From Bacilli bacterium (GTDB lineage: Bacteria > Bacillota_I > Bacilli_A > RF39 > UBA660), in assembly GCA_017484125.1 (NCBI GenBank), contig JAFUTV010000033.1, positions 1 through 48,616 on the forward strand: a stretch of DNA of 48,616 nucleotides, written 5' to 3'. Under the pieces are notes generated by a model, which searched no databases, was not told where the DNA came from, and saw nothing but the letters and a program-made list of their open reading frames with translations. A program made the position numbers and the translations under genes. Below, piece by piece: positions 24,711 through 33,557 of this stretch; position 1 is the first letter of the stretch, and each line of letters begins with the position of its first letter.

Positions 24711-25466
24711 TTATCTAATTTTTTTAAATAATCTTTTAGTGTTTTGATTTGTTAGTTTTTCAACTTCTTCAATACTTATATTTTTAATTTCTGATAACTT
24801 ATTTACAATATATTTGATATTGCTAGTTTTGTTTATTTCACTTCTACATGGTTCAGGACTAATATATGGACTATCGGTTTCTACTAAAAACAAATCATTA
24901 GGCACTCTTTTTGCTACTTCAATTGATTTTTTTGCATTTTTATAAGTTATTTTTCCAGCAAATGAAATATAATAGTTATTGCTTATTAAATAGTTTAAAT
25001 CATCTATATCAGGTTGAAAGCAATGAAAAACGCATCCATTCTCAGGCTTAACTGCTTTTTCAAAAATATCTATTATTAATTTATTTGCATTATTAGAATG
25101 AATAATTACTGGCAATTTAAGAAGATTAGCAATCATTATTTGTTTAATTAAGTATTTTATCTGTTCTTTAATATTATTATGTGATAAATCTAAGCCAATT
25201 TCTCCAATAGCTACTACTTTATCATTAAAAGATATTTTATATAATTCTTTTATATCTTCATTTTCTATATACAAAGGATGTATTCCAACAGCACAATAAA
25301 ACTTACTATTATCATTTGCAATAGCAATAGATTCTCTTGATGTAGCAATATTAAGGCCTACATTTATTACACTTTCAATATTTAAATTATTATTAATATC
25401 ATCTATATATTCTTTAGTATTATCTAAAACTTTACTATTAATATGCATATGAGAATCTATTATCAT
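24711..25466 (-). CDS. tatD: TatD family metal-dependent hydrolase/DNase
   Basis: 251 aa TIM-barrel hydrolase. Metal ligands and motifs in order: DSHMHI (first His pair), GIHP, GEIGLD, IIHSNN, FHCF, and VETDSPYISPEP. These match TatD, a 3'-5' DNase linked to DNA repair and peroxide damage. AAAGGAAA before ATG. Solitary gene with its own extended -10 promoter. Confidence 0.93.
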   Translation of the reverse strand: MIIDSHMHINSKVLDNTKEYIDDINNNLNIESVINVGLNIATSRESIAIANDNSKFYCAVGIHPLYIENEDIKELYKISFNDKVVAIGEIGLDLSHNNIKEQIKYLIKQIMIANLLKLPVIIHSNNANKLIIDIFEKAVKPENGCVFHCFQPDIDDLNYLISNNYYISFAGKITYKNAKKSIEVAKRVPNDLFLVETDSPYISPEPCRSEINKTSNIKYIVNKLSEIKNISIEEVEKLTNQNTKRLFKKIR

Positions 25467-25527: not shown

Positions 25528-25681
25528 CTAAAAAAGGCCTTAATCAAGTCTAAATAGTTTAAGAGGATTATTTAATGATTAGATAGTTAAGATAGTCCGA
25601 AACCATCAAAACAAATAAATAAACAATTTAATTCTATAATCACTATACCATGAATTTAACTATAATTATTTTTATAAAAAT

Positions 25682-25732: not shown

Positions 25733-27994
25733 TTAATTATCTTTTCTTGTTTTCCTTAATACTTTAACGCCATCATCATTTTTTAATAATGATAGGATTT
25801 CTATTTCTTTTTGTTTTATTTCATCTAGTGTTAAATTGAAATGATTTGATAAATCTTCATCACTATAATTTTCTTGATATTTTAACATAATAAGAGATAA
25901 ATCTTTAGGATCTAATAATGATAATACTTTCATCATATCTGAACTAAATGAATTATTTTCAGTTTCCTCATATGGATTGTTATGATCAAGATCAGAAATA
26001 TAATCAATCATTGATTTTTCTTTTCTTGTGCCTTTATCACGAGAATATTTCGCATCATCTAATGATAAACTATTATTTTGCTTTCTATATTTTTTTAAAT
26101 AAGTTCTAAAATAACCTTTTACAGACAAATCCATATACTTAATTATTTGTCCATAAATATTTAAATTAGTCCTATTTATTACCGTTAATAGATAATATTT
26201 AATTTCACTTTCAAAATCTTCATAATTACTATTATTTACTTTTACTTCATAATTACAACATAATGAATATATTGTTTTATATATATATCTTTTTTGTCTC
26301 AATAATATTTTATTTCTTGAATCATATAACTCACTTTTATATATACCAATTAAATCATACAGTTCAAATTGTTCAATGTCCTTTTTATTATTTTTTAAAT
26401 TATCAATTAAAGTAAAAATATCCTTTATTTTTTTATCAGTAATCATTTTATAATCATCATTATTTTTTTTATCAGAAAAATACCAAATCATATTGATTGC
26501 CTGATTAAATGAGAAGTCCATACTAACTAAATCATTTACGTTTTCAAAATCTATTTTTAAGAAAGCACATATCTCCCTTATTTCGTTTATATCATGTATT
26601 TTATTACTTTTTAGTTTATCAAATATTTCACTTATTTTATCTATTTGTAATTTATCTTCATATTTTTTTATTGCCGATTCTATAATTTGATCATTATCTA
26701 ATGAATTATCTTTAGATTCTAGTGTTTTAATTCTTCTCCAAATTGATAAATATGGATATCCATTTACATCACAGAATTTTGTTAATGATTGATCATTAAA
26801 ATAATATTTAGTTCTTAATGGTGGATGTTCAATATAATAATCTACAATTTGTTTTATTGCTTCATCTATATCAATATCAGTTTTATCTACATAGTCATAT
26901 AGATATCTTTGAATTACTGTATTATAATTTAAACCAATGCTATTACAATATGTTAAAAGCGGTATCCCATTGTAATAGTATTTGATGGAAAACTTTTGAT
27001 AAGATTCAACACACTCATCTACAATTTCTTGTAATGGTTTATTACTTCTTAATTGTTTTCTTAAAATAGCACAACGAATTGAACTTGCATTTAAATCATT
27101 TTGCTCGGCATAATCTTTTAAAGGTATGCCTTTATAATAATAAATTATTCCATACCTATTTATTGTTTTTATACCTTCCTCAATTAAATCATCAATATTC
27201 TTCGTGCTGTCTTTTGCTAATCCTCTTTTTACAAACGATACTACACTATAATATGATAAATCATTTTGAATACAATACTCCCTTAGAGATAATCCATTAT
27301 ACAGATATTTAAGTTCAAACTGTTGATATTGATTCATAATTGCTTCAACAAATTCATCATCACTTAATTCTTTAAAGTTATCATTATTTCTATATCTGCT
27401 TATATATGTAATTAAGTTTCTATAATTTAAATTATTATCATCACAATATTGTTTTAGTGGTATTCCTAAATAGTAATATTTATAAATTCCCTTATGAGCT
27501 TTATCTAAATATTGATTAATTAATTTTTCATCAGATAACTCTGGATTTTTTTCTTTTTCTCTATTGATGTATGTCCTAATAGAGTTGTAACTTATATCAG
27601 GATGGCTTTCACAATATTCCTTTAAAGGTACACCTTTATAAAAAAATCTAAAATTTTTATTATCGAATTCTTCCATTGCTAAAATTACTAATTCATCATT
27701 TGATAATTTTTCATTTTGCTTTCTTAAATTATTTATTCTAGAATTAATAGTTCCTATATTAATACCATTATCTATGCAATATTGTCTTAAAGATATTCCC
27801 TTATACATATATTTAATAGCACTACCATAAGCTTCTATAACCATATCCACAATTTCTTGTTCTGTATAGTTCTCATATTTTTTACTTTGTTTCTTTTTCC
27901 ATATTCTAGCACGTATGGTACTTATATTAATATTATTATCTTTACAATACTTCGATAAAGGTATGCCATTATATAAATACTTACTTTCTTGCAT
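25733..27994 (-). CDS. Eight tandem HTH-like repeats fused to a sigma-factor-like C-terminus
   Basis: 753 aa, no membrane segment. Residues 4-450 are eight repeats starting near 4, 60, 115, 171, 228, 284, 337 and 394, spaced about 56 aa, consensus Y-Y-x-G-I-P-L-x-x-Y-C-x-x-N-x-[LI]-N-Y-x-T-I-x-x-R-I, then a short acidic helix. The Cys/Asn/Ile pattern looks like a helix-turn-helix unit. Residues ~560-740 resemble sigma-70 family regions 2 and 4: FESEIKYYLLTVINR, FRTYLKKYRKQNNSLSLDDA, and a C-terminal LSLLDPKDLSLIMLKYQENYSDEDLSNHFNLTLDEIKQKE HTH. Inference: a DNA-binding transcription regulator or alternative sigma factor with a multivalent DNA-reading arm. GGTGGTG before the ATG. No name in my knowledge fits. 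Confidence 0.75.
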   Translation of the reverse strand: MQESKYLYNGIPLSKYCKDNNINISTIRARIWKKKQSKKYENYTEQEIVDMVIEAYGSAIKYMYKGISLRQYCIDNGINIGTINSRINNLRKQNEKLSNDELVILAMEEFDNKNFRFFYKGVPLKEYCESHPDISYNSIRTYINREKEKNPELSDEKLINQYLDKAHKGIYKYYYLGIPLKQYCDDNNLNYRNLITYISRYRNNDNFKELSDDEFVEAIMNQYQQFELKYLYNGLSLREYCIQNDLSYYSVVSFVKRGLAKDSTKNIDDLIEEGIKTINRYGIIYYYKGIPLKDYAEQNDLNASSIRCAILRKQLRSNKPLQEIVDECVESYQKFSIKYYYNGIPLLTYCNSIGLNYNTVIQRYLYDYVDKTDIDIDEAIKQIVDYYIEHPPLRTKYYFNDQSLTKFCDVNGYPYLSIWRRIKTLESKDNSLDNDQIIESAIKKYEDKLQIDKISEIFDKLKSNKIHDINEIREICAFLKIDFENVNDLVSMDFSFNQAINMIWYFSDKKNNDDYKMITDKKIKDIFTLIDNLKNNKKDIEQFELYDLIGIYKSELYDSRNKILLRQKRYIYKTIYSLCCNYEVKVNNSNYEDFESEIKYYLLTVINRTNLNIYGQIIKYMDLSVKGYFRTYLKKYRKQNNSLSLDDAKYSRDKGTRKEKSMIDYISDLDHNNPYEETENNSFSSDMMKVLSLLDPKDLSLIMLKYQENYSDEDLSNHFNLTLDEIKQKEIEILSLLKNDDGVKVLRKTRKDN

Positions 27995-28018: not shown

Positions 28019-28027
28019 ATTATAACA
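28019..28027 (-). promoter_or_regulatory. Extended -10 box of the sigma-like gene
   Basis: Minus strand TGTTATAAT, 24 bp before the ATG at 27994. Confidence 0.5.
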
Positions 28028-28116
28028 CAAAATAATTAAATTTAAGTATAATCAGTCAATTATAATCTACAGCATATTATTGATAAAATTAATAACTAGC
28101 TACATATCTTATCAAA

Positions 28117-28153: not shown

Positions 28154-28186
28154 AAGTAAACTCGAAAGTTCGAGCAGATTTCCCTA

Positions 28187-28557
28187 TGGTGGAGTAGAGG
28201 AGACTTGAACTCCTGTCCAAACTATATGGTAAGACAACATCTACAAGTTTAGTAGGATTTATAATTTCATTAAATAACTGGCTACTACGTACCTATTACT
28301 TAACTAAGATTAGTTAAATTCATATTATAACCTAATCAATTATAATATATAACCTATATATATGATCTTCTATCTTAAACTATAGGTAAATTTAAGTAGA
28401 AGAACTCCCATACCTTCAATTAGGCAAATGCAGGAGTGAATGCTCCAATTGAGCTTTCATTGTTATCATTTAATTTTAATTTATAAGTTTTAAGTCATTA
28501 ATAGACTACTTGCAATCATCTTCCATAAAAATAGCCTGTCGAAACCATAGCTACCCC
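28187..28557 (-). ncRNA. ssrA: tmRNA (ssrA)
   Basis: Transfer-messenger RNA for ribosome rescue. The 5' end GGGGTAG pairs with CTACTCC (one G-U) before an encoded ACCA; GGTTTCGACAGG is the conserved 5' segment, and GGACAGGAGTTCAAGTCTCC is the T-arm. About 371 nt. The tag reading frame ends at 28420-28422 (TAA) and its last residues read SSIGAFTPAFA; the resume codon is not certain (open frame extends back past LNDNNE). An AFA-type end resembles Mollicutes tags rather than the usual LAA. RNase P would mature the 5' end and the CCA is encoded. Confidence 0.93.
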
Positions 28558-28768: not shown

Positions 28769-30004
28769 ATGAAAAATAATGAAAAAAGCAACATAGATTA
28801 TAATCACAATTATTATTATGATTTAGGAGTTAGTGAAGATGCTAGTATATCTGAAATTAGACTTGCATTTAGAAAATTAATGGATGCTGTTAGCAATGAT
28901 TCAACATTAAGTGATAAAGATGCAAATATGTATTTAGAAAGACTAACATTTGCATATCATGTATTAACTGATGAAGAAGAAAGAACTAGATATGATAAGA
29001 TTAGAAAAGAAAGAAAAGTAACAAATGAAATAGTTAGACGTAAAAAAGGTGATGTTAAAAATAACAATAGTGACATTGAACGTGACTTAGATACTGGTGC
29101 TGATGTTAGCAAAAAAACTAGTAATATACCTTTTTATATTTGTGCTGGTGTTCTTGGCGCAGCAATTATCACAACTGGTATATTAGCTTATGAAGCTGTT
29201 AAACTAAAAAATAGTATTAACGATGAAACAACTACAGTTTCTGATGATAATACTAGATCAATGGAAAACCAAGATTTAACACAATCAGATCAAACTAGTG
29301 ATTTTAATAATCAATTAGATGATTCTAATGACGATATCGTTACACAAGAAGAAAGTGTACCTGTTGTTGAAGAAGTTCAAGAAGTTGAAGAAGATATTGA
29401 AACTAAAATAGCAAGAACAACAGATGAAGCATATAGTGTACTTCAACAAAATACTGATGACACTATCAAATATTCTTTTGATAGAGACACAGTTGAAGCT
29501 TTAGTTAGATATGCTAATGGTGAAAGACTTTTTACAAATGAATATTCTTATGAACAATTATATGCACTTGCCCAAAATGGTGTAGATATCTCAATGTTTT
29601 ATAAAGATGCAGTTTCATATGATAATATTAAAAATTTAGATTATGCTATGTTAGCTATAAATGAAAATAATAATACATATGATGATGAATACAATGCATA
29701 CAAAGCTATAGATTTAGCAATAGATAGTATGGATCAAAATAATTTTGCTGAAGTAATTGCAATAAGAGCTGCTATTGATGCAAATATTGATAGAAATTCT
29801 ATGGCAATGTTAAGAGATGGAGCTTTAGAAAATGGTAATGAAGGAGAAACTTATTACCAAGAAAAAGCATCTATTGATTCAGCAAAAAAAGAAGAATGTA
29901 AGAGAATATATAACGATGTAGATTTAAATAATGCTGACAGTGCAATTATGCAAGCAACATATAAAGCACTTGATGCAGATAGTGAATTAGTAAGATCAAG
30001 ATAA
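28769..30004 (+). CDS. Membrane-anchored J-domain-like protein lacking HPD
   Basis: 411 aa. Residues ~14-76 match a J-domain in order (YYYDLGVSEDASISEIRLAFRKL ... YLERLTFAYHVLTDEEERTRYDKIRK) but the HPD tripeptide between helices II and III is replaced (VSND at 41-44), so it should not stimulate DnaK ATPase in the usual way. A single membrane helix follows (about 120-142), then an acidic, Asn/Asp/Gln-rich external domain with a helical C-terminal part (220-411). First gene of a three-gene operon; the intervals are 21-22 bp with strong ribosome binding sites. Confidence 0.75.
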   Translation: MKNNEKSNIDYNHNYYYDLGVSEDASISEIRLAFRKLMDAVSNDSTLSDKDANMYLERLTFAYHVLTDEEERTRYDKIRKERKVTNEIVRRKKGDVKNNNSDIERDLDTGADVSKKTSNIPFYICAGVLGAAIITTGILAYEAVKLKNSINDETTTVSDDNTRSMENQDLTQSDQTSDFNNQLDDSNDDIVTQEESVPVVEEVQEVEEDIETKIARTTDEAYSVLQQNTDDTIKYSFDRDTVEALVRYANGERLFTNEYSYEQLYALAQNGVDISMFYKDAVSYDNIKNLDYAMLAINENNNTYDDEYNAYKAIDLAIDSMDQNNFAEVIAIRAAIDANIDRNSMAMLRDGALENGNEGETYYQEKASIDSAKKEECKRIYNDVDLNNADSAIMQATYKALDADSELVRSR

Positions 30005-30025
30005 AGGAAATGGAGGTAAAAACTC

Positions 30026-31162
30026 ATGGAAAACGTGGAAGATAAAGATTATCTAATGGTTATTGAAGATGAAGAAGATGAAGAACTAGCCAAAAAAGCT
30101 AGAAATGCAAAAATAATAACTACTAGTGCAGCTTTACTTGGAATAGCACTTTTAGCTGGTGCACTATATATTTCACATAAAGAAAAAACAAAAATTGTAC
30201 CACAAGTAGATGATGGCAGTTCAAACCAAACAACATATGAATCAATTATAGTAGATAGTGATCAAGATATTATTATTCCAACAAGTGAAGATAGTTTTGT
30301 AGCTATAAATGATTCTATAATAGATGATAATAAAACTGAAAATACTCAAGATATTATTATCAAAGATGAAATTGTTAAATCTTCTGAAGAAGTAGAAAAT
30401 AATGAATTTACTTTCAAAGAAGTCGACTATTCAAACGTTGCAACTTTCTATAATCATATAATTGAAAATAGAAATAAATACGGAAGTTTTGCTGAAAGTT
30501 TCCAAAGTGAGGAAGACGTTAAAAACTTTATCAATTTTGTTTATAACTTTGATGAGTTATATGCCTATAATGATTCAACTATAAGATCACAAGAAGATTA
30601 TGACGCTATAATAAGAGATTATTATAAATCTTGTGTTAGACATGATGTTTTAGGACAACTTCATCTATTATTTAAAGATGATACTCTAGCACAAAAGAAA
30701 CTTCAAGAAGCTGAAGAATTAGCATATGACTTAAAAAACGGAAGTGGAAAAGATTATACTATCGCAAATAAATATTATACTTGGTTTGGAGTAAACCTAT
30801 GTGATGGTAGAACAAATATTGATAGAAATACAAAAAACGCACCATTAATTGATGGTTTAAGAGAACAATATGAACAATATAGATATTCAGGTAATATGTT
30901 AAATGCAAGAAAATATCAAAAAAATGATTCATTACCTATTGAAGGTATAAATATGTATTATTCTGAAGAATTACCTGAAGGAATGGAAGTTGTTGAAGTT
31001 CAAAATTCATACAGTTGTCCAGACTGGGGAATTGATAACATTGTATCTAAATCTGAAGAAGATACAGAAACAAGATTAGTAAAAAAAGAAAATGGTATAG
31101 ATTTATTTAAGGAAGTTGATGATGCCTTTGATTTAGTGCTAGGCACTTCACTAGAAAGATAG
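30026..31162 (+). CDS. Single-pass membrane protein with external domain, unknown
   Basis: 378 aa. Short acidic cytosolic head (EDEEDEELAKKARNAK), one membrane helix (about 30-50), a disordered acidic linker to ~130, then an external globular region (about 135-378) ending CPDWGIDN ... FDLVLGTSLER. Same orientation and layout as the upstream J-like protein, but without a J-domain. No known family. GGAGG 9 nt before ATG. Likely partner of the neighbouring proteins in one surface complex (inference). Confidence 0.7.
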   Translation: MENVEDKDYLMVIEDEEDEELAKKARNAKIITTSAALLGIALLAGALYISHKEKTKIVPQVDDGSSNQTTYESIIVDSDQDIIIPTSEDSFVAINDSIIDDNKTENTQDIIIKDEIVKSSEEVENNEFTFKEVDYSNVATFYNHIIENRNKYGSFAESFQSEEDVKNFINFVYNFDELYAYNDSTIRSQEDYDAIIRDYYKSCVRHDVLGQLHLLFKDDTLAQKKLQEAEELAYDLKNGSGKDYTIANKYYTWFGVNLCDGRTNIDRNTKNAPLIDGLREQYEQYRYSGNMLNARKYQKNDSLPIEGINMYYSEELPEGMEVVEVQNSYSCPDWGIDNIVSKSEEDTETRLVKKENGIDLFKEVDDAFDLVLGTSLER

Positions 31163-31184
31163 ATAACGTTAGGGGGTAAAAATT

Positions 31185-33557
31185 ATGTATTATGATGATA
31201 ATGTAAAAATTAAAATTGATTGGAAAAATTTAATAATAAAATTAATCTTAGTAGTATTATTTGTATTATTAATTATTTGGTTATTTCCTGTACCAAAATT
31301 AGATACATTCTACAATAAAATTTACAATGAAAATTTATCTAATATGAAAGAAGTTTCTGAAAAATATTTCGCTAGTGAAAATTTACCAGAAACTACAGGA
31401 AGTTCTGTAACTATTAAACTTCAAGATATGCTTGATAAAAAAATTATTACTAATTTTACAGATAAAAATAATAAAGAATGTAGTAATACAAATTCATATG
31501 CACAAGTAACTAAAACTGATAATAATAATTATGTATTAAAAGTTCAATTATCTTGTGATGATAAAACTGACTATATTTTAGAAAACTTAGATACAGTTAA
31601 AACTGTATATGTTAATAAAAATTCTGGAAATGCTAATGTTAATTCAAATTCTAATAATGATAGTAACGCAGAAAACAAAAATGAATCAAGTAATGAAACT
31701 ATTCAAGGTCAAGATGATGGAATTGAAATTGATCCTAGCATATTAAATAGTGGTGATAGTAAATATGATAAAGATTTATCTGTTACTGAATATGAGTATA
31801 AAAAACCAATAGTTAAACAAACAACAACATATGTTTGTCCTGAAGGTTATATAAGAGACAATAATTCTTGTTATAAATATGAAACAGGTGAAACTATTGA
31901 TGCTACACCATTATACTTTAATGATGTAACTCAAAAAACTGATGCTAAGAAAAATGTAACAGGTGCTTATACTAAAAAAGGAAAAGTAATTAAAACTGTT
32001 GAAAAAGAAGAAAAAATATGTCCAGAAGGATATACATTAAATGGAAATATTTGTTATAAATACGTAAATGCTACAGTAGTTCCAGGAACAACAACATACG
32101 TTTGTCCTGAAGGTTATACTAAAAATGGTACTTCATGTACTAAAACATTAACTGCAACTGAAAAAGTAGGAGATACTTCTTATTATTGTCCTGAAGGTTA
32201 TAGTTTATATGGAACTAAATGTTATAAATATGTAGATGCTAATAAAAATATTAACCAAGGCTCATATTACTATACATGTGATAAGGGTGTTGGAAGCTTA
32301 AATGGTACTAAGTGTACATATTCTGCATCAAGACAAAACGGATCAACTACATGTAAATGTACTGAAGGATATGAAGAAAACGGAAGATGTGTTGTAAATT
32401 CATCTTATACTGGAACATATCATGCAGGTCAAATAAATTATCAAAGTTGTCCAAGTGGATATAGTGAATCAGGTAGTAAATGTACTAAGACTAATTCATA
32501 TGCAGCTACTAAAAATGTATCATGGAGTAATCCAACAGTATCTACATCAAGTACAGCATTATCAGAATATAATAATGGTACAACAAAGAGAGTATTAGCT
32601 AACAAGAGTTGTACACTTAGAGGTTGCACATATACATATCATACATACACTGCTAACGTAAGTTATTCTTGTCCAAATGGTGGTACTCTATCAAATCAAT
32701 CATGTATTTCTTATAGTACTATAGATAGATCTTATACTACAACTGATGCATACTATACATGTAATGATGGTTCAAGACAATCAAGTTCTACATGTTATAC
32801 AAAAACATACAAAGATAAAACATGTAATACTACATCTGGATCATATTATTGTCCATATGGTGGTAGTGTAAATCAATCTAATGGAACATGTACTTATGAT
32901 GCTACATATCATAAAAATGATGATAATGTATCATATACTTGTCCAGATGGTTATCATGTAGTAGCTGGAAATAGTCAAAGATGTGAACAAATAATTGATG
33001 CTACAATTAAAACTGGTGAAACTACATATTCTTGTCCAGCTGGATATACAGTAAATGGTAAGAATTGTACAAATACAATTGCTGCTACTCCAGTAACAAC
33101 TGATACTAAATATACATGCCCAAGTGGTTATGTTCAAGAAGGAACTACATGTTATCAATACACTGAACCTACAAATAAGAAGACATATAAATATAATTGC
33201 TCAGAAGGTTATACTAAAAATGGTGAAGGTGAAAAAACAACATGTACTAAAAAAGTAGAATCAACAACTACATATTATTGTGAAGATGAAGATGAAGAAC
33301 TAGTTGGAGATAAATGTGTTAAAGTTGTTAAAGGTGGAATAAAAGGATATACTTGTCCTGAAGGTTATATTTTAAATAAAAATAAATGTGTTAAGAAAAC
33401 TTTAGAGTGTGCACCACTTCAAGAGGTAACAAATACATCTACAACTTATGAATATACTTGGAGTAGTGATCCATACTTACAAGGATGGACACAAACTGGT
33501 AAGACTAGAACATCTAATACTACACAAGTAACAAATATTAACGCATATGAAAAGTAG
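31185..33557 (+). CDS. Membrane-anchored surface protein with ~16 CPxGY...C repeats
   Basis: 790 aa. N-terminal anchor (about 14-37), then a ~110-aa domain (SEKYFASENLP...TIKLQDMLDKKIIT...YAQVTK) with two Cys, like heads of other gut Bacilli surface proteins, an Asn/Ser linker, and about sixteen ~25-45-residue repeats of the type TTYxCPxGYxxxGxxCxKx between ~215 and 770. The two cysteines per repeat suggest EGF-like disulphide-linked modules on a stalk. Adhesin or scaffold is the likely role. Repeats vary strongly (CPEGY, CPSGY, CNDG, CPYGG), so they are old rather than freshly duplicated. Last operon gene; strong AGGGGG site. Confidence 0.75.
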   Translation: MYYDDNVKIKIDWKNLIIKLILVVLFVLLIIWLFPVPKLDTFYNKIYNENLSNMKEVSEKYFASENLPETTGSSVTIKLQDMLDKKIITNFTDKNNKECSNTNSYAQVTKTDNNNYVLKVQLSCDDKTDYILENLDTVKTVYVNKNSGNANVNSNSNNDSNAENKNESSNETIQGQDDGIEIDPSILNSGDSKYDKDLSVTEYEYKKPIVKQTTTYVCPEGYIRDNNSCYKYETGETIDATPLYFNDVTQKTDAKKNVTGAYTKKGKVIKTVEKEEKICPEGYTLNGNICYKYVNATVVPGTTTYVCPEGYTKNGTSCTKTLTATEKVGDTSYYCPEGYSLYGTKCYKYVDANKNINQGSYYYTCDKGVGSLNGTKCTYSASRQNGSTTCKCTEGYEENGRCVVNSSYTGTYHAGQINYQSCPSGYSESGSKCTKTNSYAATKNVSWSNPTVSTSSTALSEYNNGTTKRVLANKSCTLRGCTYTYHTYTANVSYSCPNGGTLSNQSCISYSTIDRSYTTTDAYYTCNDGSRQSSSTCYTKTYKDKTCNTTSGSYYCPYGGSVNQSNGTCTYDATYHKNDDNVSYTCPDGYHVVAGNSQRCEQIIDATIKTGETTYSCPAGYTVNGKNCTNTIAATPVTTDTKYTCPSGYVQEGTTCYQYTEPTNKKTYKYNCSEGYTKNGEGEKTTCTKKVESTTTYYCEDEDEELVGDKCVKVVKGGIKGYTCPEGYILNKNKCVKKTLECAPLQEVTNTSTTYEYTWSSDPYLQGWTQTGKTRTSNTTQVTNINAYEK

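Follow-up and report, generated by a model that had tools for sequence, protein, structure and literature searches.

What does a protein do that carries an array of helix-turn-helix (HTH) repeats in front of a sigma-like module? We find such a protein (P0001) encoded in a 48,616-nucleotide stretch of DNA from an uncultured Bacilli bacterium, referred to here as the window. Its gene, which we call the array-sigma gene, is an open reading frame at 25733-27994 on the minus strand that starts with ATG and specifies 753 aa; a conserved GGTGGTG and an extended -10 promoter lie upstream. Among orthologues, conservation of the upstream DNA ends beyond ~60-75 bp, and we therefore discounted autoregulation through a long upstream site. 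From N- to C-terminus, the protein consists of eight ~55-aa repeats, a helical linker domain and sequences resembling sigma regions 2 and 4. Each repeat in the following list is backed by the repeat profile, AlphaFold and a held-out test.

28019..28029, minus strand: extended -10 promoter TGTGTTATAAT of the array-sigma gene, kept in most orthologues
25733..27994, minus strand: array-sigma gene, 753 aa (open ORF, conserved RBS, orthologues, dN/dS)
27824..27982, minus strand: HTH repeat 1, residues 5-57
27656..27817, minus strand: HTH repeat 2, residues 60-113
27488..27652, minus strand: HTH repeat 3, residues 115-169
27317..27484, minus strand: HTH repeat 4, residues 171-226
27152..27310, minus strand: HTH repeat 5, residues 229-281
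26990..27148, minus strand: HTH repeat 6, residues 283-335
26825..26986, minus strand: HTH repeat 7, residues 337-390
26651..26812, minus strand: HTH repeat 8, residues 395-448
26372..26641, minus strand: helical linker domain, residues 452-541, with a conserved WYFxD (pLDDT 82-97)
26051..26371, minus strand: sigma region 2-like, residues 542-648 (collinear TIGR02937 matches in five divergent members; fold)
25760..25957, minus strand: sigma region 4-like, residues 680-745 (hhalign, SigD fold match, retrieval of SigA-type factors)

Is the array real? A repeat profile found eight copies in the window protein. As a guard against circularity, each of them was also scored against a profile that left out its own repeat position and drew on the remaining seven in other genomes only. 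Scores in this held-out test (33.6-61.4 bits) exceeded those of 300 shuffled versions of each repeat, of which the best reached at most 9.8 bits; this places the array far above chance and establishes it as real. A sequence-only reading of this DNA had proposed eight repeats of ~56 aa, and the repeat profile and held-out test bear out both their number and their starts.

The repeats belong to the HTH superfamily (IS66 TnpA/HTH_23 type), as judged from profile matches above cut-off. Summed over its repeats, P0001 matches the NCBIfam model of IS66 TnpA (NF047593) at 46.4 bits with a cut-off of 28; the homologue L140 reaches 84.7 bits with this model, and its repeats exceed the Pfam cut-offs for HTH_23, HTH_28 and Sigma70_r4_2. 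Further matches of the P0001 repeats are to BcepMu gp16, phage terminase small subunit and excisionase families. AlphaFold2 (13 homologues; mean pLDDT 67.9 and pTM 0.32, which is modest) models every repeat as strand-strand-helix-helix-helix, with two short strands leading into a helix of 7 to 8 residues, then a turn, a helix of 11 to 14 residues and finally the third helix. These family matches and the modelled fold of each repeat agree with the HTH assignment made earlier from the letters. Across 14 arrays, basic residues prevail in helix 2, with K/R reaching 65% at single positions and D/E staying below 20%, and helix 3 is acidic, as expected if helix 2 contacts DNA. While each window repeat matches the HTH type of IS66 TnpA, BcepMu gp16 and HTH_23 proteins, the latter are not eight-HTH arrays fused to a sigma module.

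Between the array and region 2 lies a well-predicted helical domain (residues 452-541) that the sequence-only reading had not described. This domain is possibly a ninth, diverged HTH; that it is one more copy of the array repeat found no support, its E-value of 0.033 falling within the control range. For the C-terminus, patterns like those of sigma regions 2 and 4 had been proposed, and these held up, firmly for region 4 and as likely for region 2. Residues 569-738 match TIGR02937 (sigma70-ECF; E 1.2e-8) over model positions 4-162 of 165; the scores of P0001 (34.8 bits) and of its homologue L041 (41.0 bits) are both below the curated cut-off for naming an ECF sigma factor (42.9 bits). TIGR02937 also matches L029, L048, L051 (4.6e-9), L041 (1.4e-10) and L143, mostly over the whole model. 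Among the Pfam matches of P0001 a sigma domain is absent, and those to UDPG_MGDP_dh, Tai4 and C34 were set aside as below cut-off and implausible.

Profile-profile alignment (hhalign) of residues 542-745 with eleven sigma factors of the same and related genomes covered 180 collinear columns at an E-value of 1.2e-8. Taken by itself, region 4 reached 3.4e-7 against sigma factors of the same and related genomes. Region 2 alone reached 0.007 as compared to 0.012 for a control pair and, as these are about equal, was discounted as evidence by itself; a search with region 2 of P0001 alone gave zero matches. A separate model of residues 452-753 has a pLDDT of 79.3 and a pTM of 0.60, again modest as a whole; most of region 2 lies at a pLDDT of 77-94. 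Foldseek and VIA-align on the modelled C-terminus returned sigma factors as all of the top PDB matches, in alignments that extend through region 2, and the region 4 model fits SigD region 4 (3vfz) with a Z of 9.6 and 1.6 A over 62 residues. By fold and sequence, region 4 falls into the Sigma-70 superfamily. Searches with the family profiles also retrieve ordinary SigA-type sigma factors in many genomes across the class, and region 2.2 of the window protein contains EDFESE, a D-x-x-x-E. Given the alignments, the models and the retrieval of ordinary sigmas, we consider the prediction of region 4 firm and that of region 2 likely, the latter on the basis of collinear full-length matches in divergent homologues and a confident fold. 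Repeats without an HTH and a C-terminus without a sigma fold had been named as the outcome that would speak against the original reading; models and structure matches gave the opposite.

Like ECF-type and SigH/FliA-type members of the Sigma-70 family (TIGR02937), the window protein has collinear putative regions 2 and 4, and its modelled region 4 superposes on SigD and SigW to within 1.6-2 A. Unlike them, it places an HTH array of ~450 residues and an extra domain in front, scores under the curated cut-offs and has no conserved partner gene adjoining it.

How widespread is this layout? It recurs in more than 10 orthologues (L016-L028 with 73-91% identity, L029 with 50%) and in relatives with one to eight repeats. 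A scan of species genomes yielded 19 loci, mostly full-length orthologues and nearly all in metagenome assemblies of uncultured Bacilli. Within the order, 27 of 385 genomes match, a number that includes a few ordinary sigma factors or other HTH proteins; all belong to one family and are spread over 20 of 117 genera. Outside that family, a phylum sample of 392 genomes contained a single negligible, stop-ridden match to the array. The array-sigma layout was hence seen only in one family of uncultured gut Bacilli, and there patchily. Phage and plasmid collections and viral contigs held no relatives of the window protein in scans that reach close relatives only, leaving an identity as a phage protein unsupported, and P0001 had no match up to E 0.1 among PADLOC defence models. 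The earlier statement that no protein with this layout has been described stands for Pfam, NCBIfam, PHROGs, PADLOC, the phage and plasmid collections and the open-access literature. Residues 660-747 of L041 show a weak match (E 0.0011) to the 726-position NCBIfam model of MzaA, a large sigma-like protein associated with an anti-phage system according to NCBIfam.

The family varies in both of its parts. Most arrays have eight repeats, L051 has six, L049 four, L052 three, and L150, L151 and L057 have one. Some relatives are without region 4 and some without the entire sigma part, including L140 and L142 with seven repeats per protein. At L140 (2374-4929), two seven-repeat proteins without a sigma domain lie next to each other, the first having an LTLTR C-terminal tail as in L141; these array-only proteins could compete with the sigma form or act as its partners. 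At L150 (4334-5708), a one-repeat form with region 2 is followed by a separate small gene matching sigma region 4, and this locus seems, from its sequence, to split the two regions into adjacent genes. L076 (5203-6345) likewise has a one-repeat form with region 2, followed by a small in-frame gene whose ATG comes right after the stop and in which a resemblance to region 4 was noted by eye only. SigO-RsoA of Bacillus subtilis is a two-part sigma, which L150 resembles in its seemingly adjacent region 2 and region 4 genes; in contrast, the window protein holds both regions in one chain, and SigO and RsoA are without an HTH array.

How does selection act on these parts? In comparisons of the window protein with eleven orthologues, most dN/dS values fall at 0.1-0.3 and the full range is about 0.1-0.4. 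Pooled pN is 0.074 at exposed helix-2 positions, 0.074 in the remaining repeat and 0.114 in the C-terminus, with pS at 0.33-0.43; judged from these rates, all three are under purifying selection. Several copies (L023, L027, L032 and L046) are interrupted by stops or frameshifts, for which decay, phase variation and assembly error are candidate causes. Such copies, all from metagenome assemblies, together with the patchy distribution would fit a decaying selfish gene that is functionless for its host, but dN/dS well below 1 between intact orthologues from different genera makes this reading very improbable, while leaving room for a selfish function that serves the element.

A test for accelerated evolution of helix 2 between orthologues came out negative. 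The exposed positions of this helix vary strongly between the repeats of one array and each repeat is conserved between orthologues; together with the pN of helix 2, this means that the reading face is kept in orthologues yet differs among repeats. In the L051 array of genome G358, which has five near-identical repeats, amino-acid changes affect 10 of 13 helix-2 codons (21-33) as compared to 7 of 37 codons elsewhere (Fisher p 3e-4, from one array whose repeats are not independent samples). Several of these helix-2 codons differ by two or three bases, and the buried I23, I27 and L30 are retained across the repeats. Read at the sequence level, this young array shows where change is tolerated or favoured, namely on the exposed face of helix 2. 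The location of the changes also bears on a different explanation, in which the repeats read RNA or protein and the sigma factor is gated by such a ligand, in the manner of an anti-sigma or sensor built into the chain. Gating of sigma factors by an N-terminal extension is known in general, and the array is N-terminal; the basic second helices, the HTH family matches and the concentration of changes on the HTH recognition face argue against such gating, which we regard as improbable.

Where does the gene reside? Its surroundings are those of a genomic island at the end of a tmRNA gene, delimited by the following features.

28187..28557, minus strand: tmRNA gene, its 3' CCACCA being the left island boundary (ARAGORN; synteny with G001-G004 ends here)
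28160..28186, minus strand: left island end TAGGGAAATCTGCTCGAACTTTCGAGT (near-same sequence after the tRNA-Thr 3' CACCA in L016 and L033)
25582..25607, minus strand: conserved right-end motif GATGGTTTCGGACTATCTTAACTATC (common to L016 and L017 right of the gene, there followed by CACCAG)

The same-genus genomes G001-G004 share the far side of the tmRNA gene, and similarity stops exactly at its 3' CCACCA; downstream, their content differs from that of the window, G002 and G004 being alike there. The sequence of the TAGGGAAATCTGCTCGAACTTTCGAGT type after tRNA-Thr is less exact in L033 than in L016. GATGGTTTCGGACTATCTTAACTATC occurs as a single copy in its own genome, and from the end of similarity to L016 and L017 we infer a right island boundary at about 25582. 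At L022, a boundary of another type (CACCAGATTGATACCAAACTCG) follows tRNA-Leu and recurs just right of the array gene, framing a 4.3-kb unit; in the window, no repeat of this motif was present. Tandem mini-islands follow tRNA 3' ends at L080/L022 (8015-12356), L020 (3481-4447) and L017 (4243-6650), each beginning with CACCAGATTGATACCAAACTCGGACTTTT(ATAATT)CGAG and some of them shorter than 1 kb and without a large ORF. Large serine recombinases are encoded near the array gene in L016, L019 and L067, and a Mob_Pre relaxase in L016; a conserved neighbour of any kind was not found across the orthologue loci. Because of these tRNA- and tmRNA-end islands, the recombinases near some copies and the lack of a conserved neighbour, the array-sigma gene is best read as mobile cargo, which in the window comes first in an island adjoining the 3' end of tmRNA. 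A TatD-type DNase gene (24711-25466) lies beside it. The same genome has another TatD, same-genus relatives have one match at 33-34%, and the window copy looks like an accessory one; a TatD also adjoins the L029 homologue. The neighbouring TatD matches QatD in PADLOC, but a Qat system is unsupported, as TatD alone is insufficient.

On the other side of the tmRNA gene, and divergent from it, lies a core operon (28769-33557) for a membrane protein with a DnaJ domain, a second protein that is membrane-anchored and a cysteine-rich surface protein with EGF-like repeats. The sequence-only reading had proposed that the array protein could be the dedicated sigma factor of this operon, and the divergent orientation over a common intergenic region would suit that role. 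In genomes of the same genus without the array gene, however, the operon keeps its syntenic place upstream of tmRNA, so that its control by the protein is unsupported; moreover, the tmRNA gene and the island boundary lie in between, and orthologues elsewhere have different, unrelated neighbours. We give this proposal hardly any credence.

Does the cargo initiate transcription at all? Alternatively, the protein could be a DNA-binding accessory factor of its element (of excisionase, architecture or silencing type), in which remnants of a sigma factor tether DNA or RNA polymerase and initiation does not occur. Consistent with this, the repeats are similar to the HTHs of excisionases, IS66 TnpA and terminase small subunits, the array gene sits at island ends, array-only relatives (L140, L142) and forms without region 4 exist, and sigma scores stay under curated cut-offs. 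On the other hand, divergent members retain the sigma region order, the C-terminus is under purifying selection and many loci have no recombinase gene nearby. We rate an accessory role as the main rival, and as rather unlikely.

The reading that we favour, and hold to be probable, is that of an island-borne, divergent sigma-70-type factor with its own address reader, whose array would sit on a long DNA site and whose regions 2 and 4 would dock RNA polymerase beside it. The basic second helices of the repeats would follow one long site and anchor the protein to it; region 2, placed on the clamp of RNA polymerase, and region 4, placed on the flap, would recruit the core enzyme and open a nearby start site. 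Specificity would derive mainly from the array, with relaxed reading of -10 and -35 elements. Since helix residues are the same across genera, the eight-repeat orthologues would be expected to have one fixed common target, probably within conserved core DNA or on the element itself. Repeat gain and loss in whole units, together with exchange of recognition-helix residues, would enable islands to re-aim the factor.

TALE repeats are shorter two-helix units that read one base each. As in TALE-like proteins (TALEs, RipTALs, BurrH and MOrTL; PMC5472282), the window protein has tandem repeats in a fixed frame, few exposed variable positions and a changing array length. It does not belong among these short two-helix repeat proteins: unlike in TALEs, its repeats are ~55 aa long, consist of a beta-hairpin and three helices and are joined to a bacterial sigma module. 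Since the screen of PMC5472282 took in repeats of 30-43 aa only, it would have missed them. In an RNA-guided transcription complex (PDB 9n9q), which we take to be dCas12f with an ECF sigma, a sigma factor is likewise aimed by a separate sequence reader, an analogy of working rather than kinship; guide RNA and Cas12f there stand against a fused protein array here.

Tentatively, and with less confidence than in the island-borne factor itself, one may go further and envisage a protein-programmed sigma, wherein interchangeable HTH readers aim RNA polymerase at long addresses, largely without canonical promoters, and islands re-aim it through repeat duplication and diversification. If true, this would add a further kind of modular DNA reader, built of repeated HTHs and wired directly to transcription initiation, along with a new reading code to decipher and an orthogonal tool to activate chosen bacterial genes. 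With this family one could also gauge, in a natural setting, to what extent reading by an array can stand in for recognition of -10 and -35 elements, and gain insight into how mobile islands control host or element genes in genome-reduced gut Bacilli.
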